Assembly: GCF_021395205.1 (NCBI RefSeq)
Contig: NZ_JAJVCS010000001.1
Coordinates: 372,001 to 436,000, forward strand
Direction of reading: 5' to 3'
Length of the DNA: 64,000 nt
Source: Polynucleobacter sp. IMCC 30228
GTDB lineage: Bacteria; Pseudomonadota; Gammaproteobacteria; Burkholderiales; Burkholderiaceae
The translations under genes and the position numbers were made by a program. Below are positions 1,981 through 20,449 of the stretch, one piece after another (within the stretch, counting starts at the first letter, position 1; the number at the start of each line of letters is the position of its first letter). The notes under the pieces are model-generated. The model had not been told where the DNA came from. It was given only the letters and a program-made list of their open reading frames with translations, and searched no databases.

Positions 1981-3116
1981 TGCAAATTCATGAGCTGACC
2001 ACACCTGCTGCATTAGTAAATACAGCGCGGATGTCACGCAATATTCAAGCGATGCAGCAACGCATGAATACACTAGGCGTTGCCTTTAGGCCGCATGTAA
2101 AAACCACTAAATGTATTGATATCGCTCATGCTCAAATAGCTGCTGGGGCCAAAGGAATAACCGTCTCTACCCTTAAAGAGGCAGAGCAATTTTTTGCTGC
2201 TGGTATCAGCGATATTGTGTATGCGGTAGGCATGGTTGCGCCTAAGCTGAAGCAAGCAGCTTCACTTATACAGCAGGGGTGTGCACTAAAAATTATTGCT
2301 GATAGTGCTGAGTCTGCCGCTGCAATTATTGCTTACTCAAGGGCCCACTCTATTTCCTTTGAAGTTTGGATTGAAATTGATACAGATGGGCATCGTTCTG
2401 GCATTAATCCGCAGAGCGATGAATTACTGAGCATTGGCCATATATTGAATCAGCAAGAAAATACCTTAGGCGGTGTAATGACCCATGCTGGCTCAAGCTA
2501 TGATCTTCATACCCCAGAAGCCCTGCAAATCCTTGCTGAGCAAGAACGTAGCTTGTGTGTGCACGCAGCAACTCGACTACGTGCTGCTGGCCTACCCTGC
2601 CCAAATGTGAGTATTGGCTCCACTCCAACTGCACTATCAGCAGTGCAGCTCGAGGGTGTAACTGAAGTACGAGCGGGAGTATATGTTTTTTTTGATTTAG
2701 TCATGTCTAACGTAGGCGTTTGTTCGTTAGACGACATTGCACTTAGTATTTTAACTACCGTGATTGGTCATCAGGCTGATAAAGGCTGGGCAATTGTAGA
2801 TGCAGGCTGGATGGCAATGAGTCGTGATCGAGGAACGCAAAAACAGGCTAACGATTATGGCTATGGGCAAATTTGTGATGTAAACGGTAAGGTAATTGAG
2901 GGTTATCAACTCATTGCCGCAAATCAAGAGCATGGCATCCTCAGTCAAGTAAAGGGAGACAGCAATCAAACGATCGCCACTCGTTTTCCAGTGGGCTCAC
3001 AATTACGCATTTTGCCTAATCATGCATGTGCAACTGGAGCACAATTTCCGACTTACTATCCAATTAATGATGAGCAGGTTATTGGCCCAGCATGGCAGCG
3101 TTTTTATGGATGGTAA
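1980..3116 (+). CDS. PLP-dependent D-threonine aldolase / D-serine dehydratase-like protein
   Basis: 378 residues. Alanine-racemase-type N-terminal barrel with the PLP lysine in RPHVKTTK (near residue 42), then the second domain with NHACATG near the C-terminus, the His-x-Cys metal pair of D-threonine aldolases and eukaryotic-type D-serine dehydratases. Members cleave or dehydrate beta-hydroxy-D-amino acids with PLP and a divalent metal. RidA lies 6 bases downstream: RidA removes 2-aminoacrylate-type enamines, so the pair suggests a dehydratase rather than an aldolase (inference). The start ATG overlaps the peroxiredoxin stop (TAATG). Exact substrate unknown. Confidence 0.8.
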   Translation: MQIHELTTPAALVNTARMSRNIQAMQQRMNTLGVAFRPHVKTTKCIDIAHAQIAAGAKGITVSTLKEAEQFFAAGISDIVYAVGMVAPKLKQAASLIQQGCALKIIADSAESAAAIIAYSRAHSISFEVWIEIDTDGHRSGINPQSDELLSIGHILNQQENTLGGVMTHAGSSYDLHTPEALQILAEQERSLCVHAATRLRAAGLPCPNVSIGSTPTALSAVQLEGVTEVRAGVYVFFDLVMSNVGVCSLDDIALSILTTVIGHQADKGWAIVDAGWMAMSRDRGTQKQANDYGYGQICDVNGKVIEGYQLIAANQEHGILSQVKGDSNQTIATRFPVGSQLRILPNHACATGAQFPTYYPINDEQVIGPAWQRFYGW

Positions 3117-15816: not shown

Positions 15817-17445
15817 TTATCCTGCCAGTGCAGATTGATAAACCAGGCCCGCATGTTCGCGTAAAGCATGAAAACGAATAGACTCCCAGCGTTGTTGGGC
15901 AACATCAAGTTCAGATTTATGCGCCGCTAAAAATACGGGCGCGTTAACGACGTCCTCAGCCATGCGGTGGGAATTTTCTTCAATAAATTTTTTGAGGATA
16001 AGAGGGTCATCTGAACTAACCCAGCGGGCTAAATTAAAGCGAGCAGGCAGTAAGCGCACCTCTGCCCCATATTCACTTTTTAAGCGATGGCTGACAACCT
16101 CAAATTGCAATTGTCCAAAAGCACCCAGTAACATCGGGCCGCCAGCAATGGGACGAAAAACTTGAATTGCACCTTCTTCGCCCAACTGCATTAGACCGAT
16201 ACGCAATTGTTTAGAACGCATTGGATCGGCCGATTCAACCATGCGAAAAATTTCTGGTGCAAAAAAGGGCAGGCCAGTAAATTGCAATTCTTCACCTTCA
16301 CTTAAGCTATCGCCCAAACGCAGTAAGCCGTGGTTAGGCAGTCCAATAATATCGCCCGGAAAGGCCTCATCTAATATATCGCGGCGCTGAGACAAGAAAG
16401 ACAGCGCATTATTGGTGCGGATTTCTTTACCATTACGACAAATTTTTAAACGCATGCCGCGCTTAAAGTGGCCAGAGCAAATGCGCAGAAAAGCGACTCG
16501 GTCGCGGTGCGCAGGATCCATATTGGCTTGAATTTTAAACACCATCGCCGAAAATTTAGGCTCGGCAGGCTCTACTTCGCGTTGCAAAGCCTTGCGCGAG
16601 CCGGGTGCTGGTGCAAGCTCAACTAAAGTATTGAGAATTTCCCGTACGCCAAAATTATTAATTGCTGAACCAAAAAAAACGGGGGATTGTTTGCCAGCTA
16701 AAAAAGCTGCACGATCAAATGCCGGCATCGCATTACGAATTAAATCGACTGCAGCAAGCGCTTCATCTAAATCACTGCCAAGCCGTTTTTTTAATTCAGG
16801 ATCATGAATATCAATAAATGTATTACTGCTTTCGGAAACCCGATCTTCGCCCGCTTTAAATAAACGCATTTTAGATTGGGCAATATCGATCACTCCTGCA
16901 AACGATTTACCCATGCCAACTGGCCAAGTAAACGGTACTACCGCCATACCTAAGGCAGTTTCAATTTCATCCATCAAGTCCAGTGGACTTTTTACTTCTC
17001 GATCCATTTTATTAATAAAGGTTACTAGGGGCGTATTACGCGCCCGACAAACTTCTAATAGCCGTAAGGTTTGTGATTCAACGCCATTCGCAGCGTCAAT
17101 AACCATGAGAGCAGAATCGACTGCTGTTAATACGCGATAGGTATCTTCCGAAAAATCTTGGTGACCAGGTGTATCTAGCAAATTAATAATGCAATCACGA
17201 TATTCCATTTGCATAACAGAGCTGGCTACCGAAATACCGCGTTGCTTTTCAATCTCCATCCAATCGGAAGTTGCGTGCCTGCTGGCTTTGCGGGCTTTAA
17301 CGCTGCCAGCAATCTGAATTGCGCCTGCATACAGCAGCAATTTTTCTGTCAGCGTTGTTTTCCCCGCATCGGGGTGGGAAATAATGGCAAAGCTACGGCG
17401 TCGCTGAACTTCTCCGGCTGTGCTATTGGATGAAAGTGTTTCGAT
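15817..17445 (-). CDS. prfC: Peptide chain release factor 3, start apparently non-canonical
   Basis: RF3 is the GTPase that releases RF1/RF2 from the ribosome after termination. Conserved segments: AIISHPDAGKTTLTEKL (P-loop), RGISVASSVMQMEY (switch I), DTPGHQDF (G3), FINKMDRE (G4), then the elongation-factor-like domains II and III. The first ATG/GTG/TTG of the frame (TTG at 17340) lies after the P-loop, so it cannot be the true start. Upstream codons stay in frame to a TAG at 17452-17454. Between them only ATC at 17443-17445 resembles a start, giving 542 residues (E. coli RF3 has 529) and the N-terminus xETLSSNSTAGEVQRRRSF. A sequence error is the alternative. It has its own promoter. Confidence 0.85.
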   Translation of the reverse strand: METLSSNSTAGEVQRRRSFAIISHPDAGKTTLTEKLLLYAGAIQIAGSVKARKASRHATSDWMEIEKQRGISVASSVMQMEYRDCIINLLDTPGHQDFSEDTYRVLTAVDSALMVIDAANGVESQTLRLLEVCRARNTPLVTFINKMDREVKSPLDLMDEIETALGMAVVPFTWPVGMGKSFAGVIDIAQSKMRLFKAGEDRVSESSNTFIDIHDPELKKRLGSDLDEALAAVDLIRNAMPAFDRAAFLAGKQSPVFFGSAINNFGVREILNTLVELAPAPGSRKALQREVEPAEPKFSAMVFKIQANMDPAHRDRVAFLRICSGHFKRGMRLKICRNGKEIRTNNALSFLSQRRDILDEAFPGDIIGLPNHGLLRLGDSLSEGEELQFTGLPFFAPEIFRMVESADPMRSKQLRIGLMQLGEEGAIQVFRPIAGGPMLLGAFGQLQFEVVSHRLKSEYGAEVRLLPARFNLARWVSSDDPLILKKFIEENSHRMAEDVVNAPVFLAAHKSELDVAQQRWESIRFHALREHAGLVYQSALAG

Positions 17446-17479
17446 GGGGCGCTATCTATGGAATAACAGAACAGCGCTC

Positions 17480-17508
17480 ATTATAAGTGTGAGAGTATAA
17501 GGACAACC
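17480..17508 (-). promoter_or_regulatory. Promoter of prfC
   Basis: On the minus strand TATAAT (17485-17480) is a perfect -10, with GGTTGT at 17-base spacing or TTGTCC at 15-base spacing as a weak -35. Transcription should begin near 17473-17472, about 27 bases before the ATC at 17445. The only upstream ATG (17481-17479) overlaps the -10 and would not be transcribed from here. Confidence 0.6.
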
Positions 17509-17512
17509 GAAA

Positions 17513-18268
17513 TTAAAACCGCTCGCCCGCTTTGAGGTAGCGCCACTGTCCTAAAGGTAGGGGCCCCAAGCTAATTTGCCCAATTCGAATTCGTTTTAAT
17601 CCAACTACCTTCAGATCAACGAGTTCACACATGCGCCGAATTTGCCTTTTACGCCCTTCGCGTAAAACAAAGCGCAATTGATCTTCATTTTGCCAGCTCA
17701 CTTTAGCGCGTTTAAGTAATTGACCATCGAGTGATAAGCCGTGGTTGAGTTGCTCAAGCCCGGCGGCCGATAATTTGCCGGTAACACGCACGAGATATTC
17801 TTTTTCAATTGGGCTATCTTCGCCAATCAGAAGCTTAGCGACACGACCATCTTGGGTTAAAACCAACATGCCAGAAGAATCAATATCAAGACGACCAGCT
17901 GGGGCAAGACCGCGGGTATTAAAGTGTGCATCCCGTTGGGGGTCAAGTGGATTGGCAAAATAATGCTCCGCAGTAATGAGAGCGGCAGCCGGTTCATAAG
18001 CTTGAGCATCATCTAAATGAGAAATATAACCAATTGGCTTATTTAAAATAACAGTGATACGCGCCTCTTGCTGTCGTTGGGCTGCCACCCGAAGCTCGAT
18101 TTTTTGGTGTCGAAATGCGCGCGTCCCAAGTTCCACTACCAACTCACCATCGACTGTCACCAGCCCTTGTTCAATATAGTTATCCGCTTCACGTCGTGAG
18201 CATAATCCCAGCTCAGATAGTAATTTGGAAACCCGAACTTTTTCTGGAGGCGAATTAGCAAGATTCAT
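17513..18268 (-). CDS. rRNA pseudouridine synthase, RsuA/RluF-like
   Basis: 251 residues. An N-terminal S4 RNA-binding domain (VRVSKLLSELGLCSRREADNYIEQG) precedes the catalytic domain with LNKPIGYISH, GRLDIDSSGMLVLTQDG (catalytic Asp in RLD) and REGRKRQIRRMCELVDLKVVGLKRIRIG. The RQIRRMCE block is closest to E. coli RluF, which modifies 23S rRNA U2604, but RluB, RluE or RsuA activity cannot be excluded. Its ATG immediately follows the kinase stop codon with no gap, so the gene is co-transcribed with the kinase and phosphoesterase. Confidence 0.85.
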   Translation of the reverse strand: MNLANSPPEKVRVSKLLSELGLCSRREADNYIEQGLVTVDGELVVELGTRAFRHQKIELRVAAQRQQEARITVILNKPIGYISHLDDAQAYEPAAALITAEHYFANPLDPQRDAHFNTRGLAPAGRLDIDSSGMLVLTQDGRVAKLLIGEDSPIEKEYLVRVTGKLSAAGLEQLNHGLSLDGQLLKRAKVSWQNEDQLRFVLREGRKRQIRRMCELVDLKVVGLKRIRIGQISLGPLPLGQWRYLKAGERF

Positions 18269-19693
18269 TTAGGTGCGCACAATATGAACACTACAGGGCG
18301 ATTCTTCAACAATTTTGGTCATCGCAGTTCGCCATGGCGTAACGAGATTGGGGGCTTTATGAGAGGCGCCAATTAAAATAAGCGAAGCATCATTATCTTT
18401 AGCAAACTCTACTATTCTGCTGGCAGGATCTAAGGCCTCAACGACATGATACGAAATTCGCTCGGGAGGTAACTTTAACGGTTTAGCCCATTCCATTAAT
18501 TGCACTAAATGGCCACGCATAATACCGCTAGCCGTTTCAATTTCTTTATTACCTTCATAAGTTGGGGTTCCTGTAATGGCTGCTAGGCAAATGAGACGAC
18601 TTTCGGGAGCAGCAAAAAGCAGATTTTTTGCTGCGCTTTGCATCCGCTCCAATAAAAGAGCATCACCTTGACGGGTGTCAAGCGCTGCAATAATCAGCGG
18701 TGCATGCTGGATAGCAGTACTTGGTAATGGACAGGGCGAGGGCTCATAGCCTGAGGCTCTAAACCAGCGCTTCATTTTCCCCCAAAGACTGGGAGGCTCA
18801 ATTCGTTCAGCCCTTTCAGTTAATTTAACGGACTCGGGATGCAGTAGCGCTTGGCGCAATTGGACGGCGCTTTGGTAGCGATCGGCAGCCCGAGGCTCTA
18901 TGCAACGCAGCACTACTTCTTGAAGCCAGCGAGGAATTTCTTTGCGCAGCGCCCGCGGTGGTAAGGGCTCCTCCCACATACGGTTTCGCAACCCCCTCAT
19001 GGTTTGGGGATTACCAAAAGGCAATTCCCCAGTTAATAATTCATACAGAATGACGCCAATTGAAAAAATATCACTTCGCCAATCATCACGTACACCCATG
19101 ACTTGTTCTGGCGAAATATAAGGCGCAGAGCCAACGCCTTTGCGCATTTCTTCTGCTAGTAAATCGGGATAACGGGCATGATGTGCCAGGCCAAAATCAA
19201 TTAGGGTTAATTTACCCTTATCATCCAGCAAAATGTTATCGGGTTTTAGGTCGAGATGAATTGCATCCTGGGCATGAATAGATTGCACAGCATTTGCCAG
19301 ATCGACACCAATTTTTATCACTTCAGGAATTGAAAATAATTTTCCAGCTTTGATGGCTTCTTCTAATGCGCGACCAGGAATTTGTTCCATCGCAATATAA
19401 GGTCGAGTAGCCATATTCCCAGCACCCAAAAATTGAGGAATGAAAGGGCTTTTAAGAGAACGAAGAATAGTTAATTCGGTTTCAAAGGCAACCAGACTTT
19501 CAACTGGCTGATCACGCCCTACGCGCGGGATTTTTAACAGAATCGGAAAATCAATCCCCGTTTTTTTTGCTGAGTAGAGACTTGCCATGCCACCACGATG
19601 AAGTTCTTCGCCCAATAAAAACCCATCAACAATTTTGCCTGCTTGAAAAATATCATCAACTGCCTCTATTGCAGGTGTTGTCAGCGCGGTCAT
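18269..19693 (-). CDS. Ser/Thr protein kinase fused to universal stress protein domain
   Basis: 474 residues. Kinase domain at residues about 22-290: glycine-rich loop HRGGMASLY, ATP Lys54, catalytic loop HLDLKPDN (146-153, with Leu for the usual Arg), DFG (166-168), activation segment APYISPEQVMG, and SDIFSIGVILYELLTG. A short linker leads to a C-terminal universal stress protein domain from about 328, ending ILIGASHKAPNLVTPW and SPCSVHIVRT. Loss of the HRD arginine places it with RD-lacking kinases. Cytoplasmic; no membrane segment. It lies three bases after a phosphoesterase gene and directly before the pseudouridine synthase. Substrates unknown. Confidence 0.88.
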   Translation of the reverse strand: MTALTTPAIEAVDDIFQAGKIVDGFLLGEELHRGGMASLYSAKKTGIDFPILLKIPRVGRDQPVESLVAFETELTILRSLKSPFIPQFLGAGNMATRPYIAMEQIPGRALEEAIKAGKLFSIPEVIKIGVDLANAVQSIHAQDAIHLDLKPDNILLDDKGKLTLIDFGLAHHARYPDLLAEEMRKGVGSAPYISPEQVMGVRDDWRSDIFSIGVILYELLTGELPFGNPQTMRGLRNRMWEEPLPPRALRKEIPRWLQEVVLRCIEPRAADRYQSAVQLRQALLHPESVKLTERAERIEPPSLWGKMKRWFRASGYEPSPCPLPSTAIQHAPLIIAALDTRQGDALLLERMQSAAKNLLFAAPESRLICLAAITGTPTYEGNKEIETASGIMRGHLVQLMEWAKPLKLPPERISYHVVEALDPASRIVEFAKDNDASLILIGASHKAPNLVTPWRTAMTKIVEESPCSVHIVRT

Positions 19694-19696
19694 GAA

Positions 19697-20449
19697 TCAT
19701 CTGCCCGTAATCAGTCTGTTGGCCAAATCTTCTGGCAGACCAGCTAAGCGAACTTTTTCGGCGGCACTGTAGTTATCGTATGGCACACGGTGAAAAGTAA
19801 GACTTTCAATTGCAGGCTCAAAAATAGCAAAGCAGGCTTGAGCAATGCCATCGCGTGGCTGACCCAAGGATCCCGCAATACCTACCCAACGGCGATAGCG
19901 CCATACTGGCACCGGATCACTATGTTGAGGTGCAAAGCGCAATAATTTGCCAACGGCAGTTTGGTAAAAAAGTGCTTGCTCATGAACGTGTCCCACAAAG
20001 GTGTAGGGTTTGCCAGAGCTTTCAACACAATTCCAAGCGCTGAGGCTATCGGTAATGTAATTCCACTCTTCTGGATGATGAGCGGAAGCATGAGTAAAAC
20101 AAATTTCTTCCTCATGCAAAATTAAGGGGAGATTTTTTAAGAAATGAATATGCTGGGTAGATAATTGGGACCGAGTCCATTCGATCGCAGTCCAAGCCGA
20201 TTTATTCATACGTTTGCTGTAATCCTCAAAGACGGCGGCATCATGATTACCCAGTACCGCCAAGGCTTTTTTGGCAGCAATGAGATCGCCAATGCGATCT
20301 AGTATGGCAACGGGATCAGCGTTATAGCCGACGAGATCACCCAAAAAGACTATGCGGGTTACGCCAAGCTCGCTCGCGCGAGCCATACAAGCTTCAAAAG
20401 CTTCTAAATTACTGTGTAAGTCAGCAAATAATCCAATGCGCTCGGTCAT
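19697..20449 (-). CDS. Calcineurin-like metallophosphoesterase
   Basis: 250 residues with all metal-binding blocks of the family: FADLHSNLEAFEAC (D-x-H variant with Asn), VFLGDLVGYNADP (GDxVG), LGNHDAAVF (GNHD), CFTHASAHH and FVGHVHEQAL (GHxH). The DLVGYNADP form is typical of the phosphoprotein-phosphatase-like and YfcE-like branch. Placed next to a Ser/Thr kinase gene, a reversing phosphatase role is an attractive inference, but a nucleotide or other diesterase role is equally allowed by the motifs. Starts at ATG, 15 bases after the acyltransferase stop. Confidence 0.85.
   Translation of the reverse strand: MTERIGLFADLHSNLEAFEACMARASELGVTRIVFLGDLVGYNADPVAILDRIGDLIAAKKALAVLGNHDAAVFEDYSKRMNKSAWTAIEWTRSQLSTQHIHFLKNLPLILHEEEICFTHASAHHPEEWNYITDSLSAWNCVESSGKPYTFVGHVHEQALFYQTAVGKLLRFAPQHSDPVPVWRYRRWVGIAGSLGQPRDGIAQACFAIFEPAIESLTFHRVPYDNYSAAEKVRLAGLPEDLANRLITGR

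Follow-up and report, generated by a model that had tools for sequence, protein, structure and literature searches.

How does translation begin on a gene whose reading frame offers none of the usual start codons? The question arises at prfC, the gene for peptide chain release factor 3 (RF3), on the minus strand of a 64,000-nucleotide stretch of the genome of Polynucleobacter sp. IMCC 30228 (hereafter, the window). A first-pass annotation, made from the letters of the window alone, had proposed that an ATC codon serves as the start. We weigh this proposal against prfC genes from across the genus and against known rare start codons. Our main reading, to which we give a probability of roughly 0.7, is that prfC is translated from AUC at 17445 and that this codon acts as a weak, IF3-sensitive start limiting RF3.

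A release factor frame and its first codons

The RF3 reading frame occupies 15817-17451 of the window, and the codons that follow its upstream TAG are CGC CCC ATC GAA ACA CTT TCA TCC AAT AGC ACA GCC GGA GAA GTT CAG CGA CGC CGT AGC TTT GCC ATT ATT TCC CAC CCC GAT GCG GGG AAA. Between the TAG and the P-loop this frame contains no ATG, GTG or TTG. The earliest canonical codon is a TTG at 17340, within the GTPase domain. Reading the minus strand bore out the first-pass annotation on this absence and on the normal length of a product begun at the ATC, and placed the TATAAT, as well as an ATG overlapping it, where they had been reported (Table 1).

The identity of the gene is clear. Its product scores 691.8 bits against the NCBIfam model TIGR00503 (cut-off 466.95), and carries the GTPase, EF-G domain 2-like and RF3_C domains that together with the curated model define release factor 3 (PF00009, PF22042 and PF16658). 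No other gene in the 2.38 Mb genome passes the RF3 cut-off. A late first canonical codon (after codon 25) is found in four of the 66 long frames of the window (overlap below 30%), and prfC is the sole recognised gene among them to lack a usable canonical start. Of the rest, one is an acyltransferase for which a TTG is a plausible start, and two have no Pfam match.

The upstream neighbour is a pseudouridine synthase. Translational coupling to this gene was considered and set aside as unlikely, since the synthase stop sits beyond the -10 box. Further upstream lie an apparent fusion of a Ser/Thr kinase with a universal-stress-like domain (18269-19693, judged by eye from the translation) and, adjoining it, a phosphoesterase-like gene (19697-20449).

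Table 1. Features of the prfC locus in window coordinates.
Feature	Position	Strand	Basis
prfC, peptide chain release factor 3, 542 residues if begun at ATC	15817..17445, stop codon included	-	RF3 model match, Pfam domains
P-loop HPDAGKT, required in any functional product	17356..17376	-	window sequence
C-ATC-GA block	17441..17446	-	preceding C in 133/133 core genomes, following GA in 132/133
ATC, proposed start codon	17443..17445	-	same codon at the homologous place in all 133 core genomes
5' leader of about 27 nt, inferred, without Shine-Dalgarno match	17446..17472	-	position deduced from the -10 box
In-frame TAG upstream of ATC	17452..17454	-	window sequence
ATG (17481-17479) on the -10 box, with short frame closing at the TAG	17452..17481	-	window sequence
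Perfect TATAAT, -10 box	17480..17485	-	29-38 nt before ATC in 133/133 core genomes
Pseudouridine synthase (TIGR00093 subfamily), upstream neighbour, ending before the -10 box	17513..18268	-	model match

Start codons across Polynucleobacter

The prfC 5' end could be resolved in 169 of 186 Polynucleobacter genomes. At the start place, 133 of them (the core) read ATC, a sister group of 10 reads ATT or ATC, 14 read ATG, 11 have a divergent prfC with ATG, and one reads ACC. The first 101 genomes gave 75 with ATC, 4 in the ATT/ATC group, 7 with ATG and 11 with the divergent ATG type; the family search added 4 with ATC, and 68 further genomes supplied 54 with ATC, 6 in the ATT/ATC group, 7 with ATG and the single ACC. 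The grouping of the 158 non-divergent genomes was repeated in a second pass. One genome (L107, the same as G298) is counted once in the totals, yet also stands in the 80-row set, the 35-gene set and the trees used below. The 17 genomes outside the 169 comprise two with weak matches only (G028 and G052, best E values 1.4e-21 and 5.1e-44), two with partial matches (G053, G074), nine without a match to the pattern (G236, G243, G246, G255, G274, G278, G301, G303, G308) and four in which the match fell beyond the matches listed (G306, G307, G309, G310). G052, which is 100% complete in 3 contigs, has no RF3-grade match, and its prfC locus seems to be missing since the pseudouridine synthase neighbour is matched only at 34% identity.

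Judged from these genome sequences, most members of this freshwater genus appear to retain a rare AUC start on prfC. The comparison of 5' ends with related strains, which the first-pass annotation had suggested as a check, gives its ATC strong support: in addition to the ATC genomes and the ATT/ATC group, the only other codon in a core-type gene belongs to a decayed prfC. This is G245 (a single-contig assembly), which reads ACC. A tblastn search recovers its prfC (L297, L353) only as fragments spread over three reading frames: a pair of long fragments with 72 and 75% identity, plus a short fragment with 92%. Frame-shifted copies, either real or due to assembly errors, were also seen late in the gene in G280 of the ATG group (L361) and near the P-loop in G023 of the ATC group (L081).

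The strict retention of the codon is telling because isoleucine codons elsewhere in the gene vary. When 35 full-length core genes are compared, every one of the 23 invariant isoleucine columns uses more than one codon (ATT 608, ATC 179, ATA 18), as do all but one of the 405 invariant columns other than methionine and tryptophan. At the start place, zero synonymous ATT or ATA occur among the 133 core genomes. The ATC therefore behaves as a start and not as an ordinary isoleucine codon. The same evidence bears on the proposal that the true start is an ATT two codons upstream (AGA ATT ACC ATC GAT), with ATC as the third codon. That ATT is present in 111 of the 133 core genomes, where it could also be used, and the decayed prfC of G245 retains it while having lost the ATC. 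Against this, an ordinary third codon would vary synonymously, which the ATC never does, and the other 22 core genomes have a different codon in place of the ATT. This codon is CGC in six of them, namely the window and the five genomes nearest to it, ACA in another six, those around P. meluiroseus, and TTT, AAT, ATC, ACC or CAT in the remaining ten. We consider initiation at the upstream ATT in most core genomes very improbable.

Canonical alternatives are equally scarce beyond the window. In 127 of the 133 core genomes the stretch between the -10 box and the P-loop is free of in-frame ATG, GTG and TTG codons; the six that do carry one show it at four different offsets (two TTG at +39, an ATG and a TTG at -24, a TTG at -30 and a TTG at -33). 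The core genes thus combine the two features of genes with AUU, AUC or AUA starts, namely no canonical start that gives a full-length product and a conserved AUH codon. In the outgroup, by comparison, an in-frame canonical codon precedes the P-loop in all 95 genes (76, plus 19 from the same family), a count of presence only.

Could the frame be entered in some other way, by an upstream frameshift, by readthrough of the TAG or from an ATG hidden by a sequencing error? In the window genome and in one of its five nearest relatives (L334), an ATG, in-frame or nearby, does overlap the -10 box and precede the TAG. However, it is missing in the other four (L009, L010, L011, L291), and where present it would lie no later than the probable 5' end of the mRNA. 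Moreover, the upstream stop varies in place and kind between genomes, and in 75 of 80 core rows the putative leader has no ATG, GTG or TTG in any frame. Sequencing error, which the first-pass annotation had itself listed as a threat to its reading, is excluded by the same missing start in 133 genomes. Taken together, these routes of entry are extremely improbable, and we take it as very likely that translation of prfC begins at AUC.

The sister group is less clear-cut. At one place its ten genomes have ATT (6) or ATC (4); the codon shifts between these two and never to ATG. An in-frame GTG or TTG nearby in seven of the ten counts against a rare start there. These canonical codons were tried as a conserved start and rejected, since their place varies: in codons upstream of the GTPase motif, a GTG lies at 11 (L082) and a TTG at 10 (L084, L284, L330, L331) or at 25 (L085, L305), and L294, L307 and L352 have none. 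L284 also has in-frame canonical codons farther upstream, including an ATG that overlaps its -10 box.

How the rare start arose depends on the tree. The divergent RF3, with an ATG start and 57-58% identity to that of the window, occurs in 11 Polynucleobacter genomes (L095-L105, with full genes L252-L255). In the RF3 tree this type (4 of the 11 included) groups with Oxalobacteraceae, far from other Polynucleobacter, and is apparently a foreign replacement. At the base of the genus is a polytomy from which the window's clade, the other ATC genes, the ATG group and the ATT/ATC group all branch, and a single clade of all AUH prfC genes is not rejected (p-AU 0.41). In the first RF3 tree the ATG group and the ATT/ATC group came out together (support 88/82), an arrangement that would need either a reversal or two origins. 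The 14 genomes with ATG belong to the vertical lineage, so the rare start is dispensable.

The leader and its ribosome-binding signals

The first-pass annotation had placed the mRNA start near 17473, giving a 27-base leader. The perfect -10 box on which this rests stands, in the window as in every core genome. The rest of the promoter does not come into view: a sigma-70 scan of the window returned no full promoter, no -35 box stands out in the core leaders, and the mRNA 5' end is deduced from the -10 box.

Ribosome-binding signals were gauged from the duplex formed with an anti-Shine-Dalgarno sequence. In the 133 core leaders the longest Shine-Dalgarno match is 0 nt in 48, 3 nt in 84 and 4 nt in 1, with a mean duplex of -0.92 kcal/mol. 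Matches in the ATT/ATC sister group span 3-6 nt (duplex -6.52), and the 27 window genes used for comparison, whose starts were simply their first canonical codons, average -2.78. The 14 ATG prfC genes have no Shine-Dalgarno match either (duplex -1.15), so its absence is unrelated to the rare start. Folding of the region around the start (-28 to +32) in 20 core genes gave a mean of -2.5 kcal/mol and nothing striking. In most of the 80 core rows the positions -12 to -1 before the ATC hold a strongly conserved element, CGCAGAATTACC, which contains no Shine-Dalgarno sequence and may be a separate ribosome-binding element.

These leaders raise a counterpoint to our reading. An AUC start without a Shine-Dalgarno sequence should be extremely weak, which is hard to square with useful amounts of RF3. 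An initiator tRNA that reads AUC was looked for and rejected: the genome has only one close match to the initiator of E. coli, and its anticodon is CAT, although a very divergent initiator would escape such a search.

A rare start as a possible brake on RF3

If AUC is the start, the mRNA would begin just downstream of the conserved TATAAT, with a short leader that lacks a Shine-Dalgarno sequence. There, fMet-tRNA (anticodon CAU) would initiate at AUC despite the third-position mismatch, and the rare codon would keep prfC weakly translated and IF3-sensitive, as infC is. IF3 is described as discriminating against AUU, AUC and AUA in the review PMC4611024. Going by the known behaviour of genes with such starts, high discrimination by IF3 would give low synthesis of RF3 and low discrimination would give more. 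We infer this control of prfC by IF3 from work in E. coli.

The gene infC is the closest parallel, and a closer one than the first-pass annotation had claimed. Both are translation-factor genes with a start of the AUH class that IF3 selects against, AUU in the infC of E. coli. In Polynucleobacter, infC itself has ATC (31) or ATA (9) at its conserved start place in all 40 loci read. Five codons on, many of these genes have an in-frame TTG but several have TCG or another codon, so the TTG is not a conserved infC start. All nine ATA genes are in genomes with the divergent prfC; the remaining two of those 11 genomes have no infC match. Outside the genus (12 loci) the same place also reads ATC or ATA, and L221 has, by eye, an ATG two codons before its ATA. 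The parallel has two limits. Unlike infC, prfC encodes RF3 and not IF3, so any effect of IF3 on it would be cross-control. In addition, Polynucleobacter infC leaders carry a Shine-Dalgarno sequence before the rare start (mean duplex -5.85 in the 47 of 52 infC loci recognised by the script), whereas the core prfC leaders do not and so lack an infC-type initiation region.

Other rare starts offer looser comparisons. As of 2007, infC and pcnB are cited in PMC1780047 as the two E. coli genes shown to use AUU; at pcnB, as we propose for prfC, the rare start limits translation. The same passages describe a translational GTPase that needs an AUU start for its full-length frame, much like prfC, but it is a different GTPase and is named for two single species, while the prfC codon is kept, mostly, across a genus. 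A rare prfC start was absent from the matches listed in our literature search, in which subscription journals are thinly covered. The pcnB product, for its part, is not a translation factor.

Whether the start regulates RF3 or merely sets its amount is a separate matter. The AUC may simply fix a constant low level of RF3, with no regulation, for which we see rather less than an even chance. The core leaders without a Shine-Dalgarno sequence fit such a constant level, as does the apparent dispensability of RF3 in relatives (decayed in G245, without an RF3-grade match in G052). Yet many other changes could lower RF3, and still the ATC is strictly kept and the sister group avoids ATG, a pattern that selection for one particular weak level would produce as well. 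In our view the retention of so odd a start suggests that little or controlled synthesis of RF3 is useful to the cell, and regulation of prfC is plausible.

Feedback by RF3 on its own start would be a further, more speculative step. Here, more RF3 would lead to more abortion on prfC mRNA, which would add to the AUC reading and not oppose it. The passages of PMC10192219 and PMC10140155 that treat the factor report that RF3 speeds up RF2-mediated release when the ribosome has miscoded and, with RRF/EF-G, favours the drop-off of short peptidyl-tRNAs, and that deleting prfC in E. coli lowers this drop-off. A ribosome fresh from initiation at AUC has a P-site mismatch as well as a chain that is still very short, which is the type of complex RF3 acts on; RF3 might in this way damp its own production. 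The third-position mismatch is conserved in 143 genomes. There is also a precedent in the same genome, where prfB, which encodes RF2, has the CTTTGA site of RF2 autocontrol. On the other side, the drop-off results in those passages concern peptidyl-tRNAs of elongation and not fMet-tRNA at a start (PMC10192219, PMC10140155), and quality control is not set off by every third-position mismatch: a U-U pair does so and a G-U pair does not, with the passages of PMC10140155 silent on C-C. A literature search on RF3 autoregulation found no paper. We therefore regard autogenous control as a tentative addition that is unlikely to hold. More doubtful still is its specific form, in which RF3 would sense its own level with the AUC mismatch as the sensor and, together with RF2 or RRF/EF-G, would abort ribosomes that have just started.

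The programmed frameshift of prfB is translation-level autocontrol of a release-factor gene. It differs from what we propose for prfC in that prfB senses RF2 at an internal UGA, while in prfC the unusual feature is the rare start and the gene contains no stop of that kind. At L282, prfB (2509-2593, minus strand) keeps the frameshift context GGGGGTATCTTTGAC.

For genome annotation, lists of start codons limited to ATG, GTG and TTG truncate a core translation gene here, as the TTG at 17340 removes the P-loop. For the biology of these bacteria, the AUC reading would make feedback by RF3 directly testable. If such feedback were true, a mismatched start codon would serve as the sensor for a factor of termination and quality control, much as with IF3 at infC and with RF2 at prfB. 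If the AUC reading itself is true, the rare start of prfC, together with the start of the same class on infC, would link the fidelity of initiation to a factor that acts in termination and quality control.
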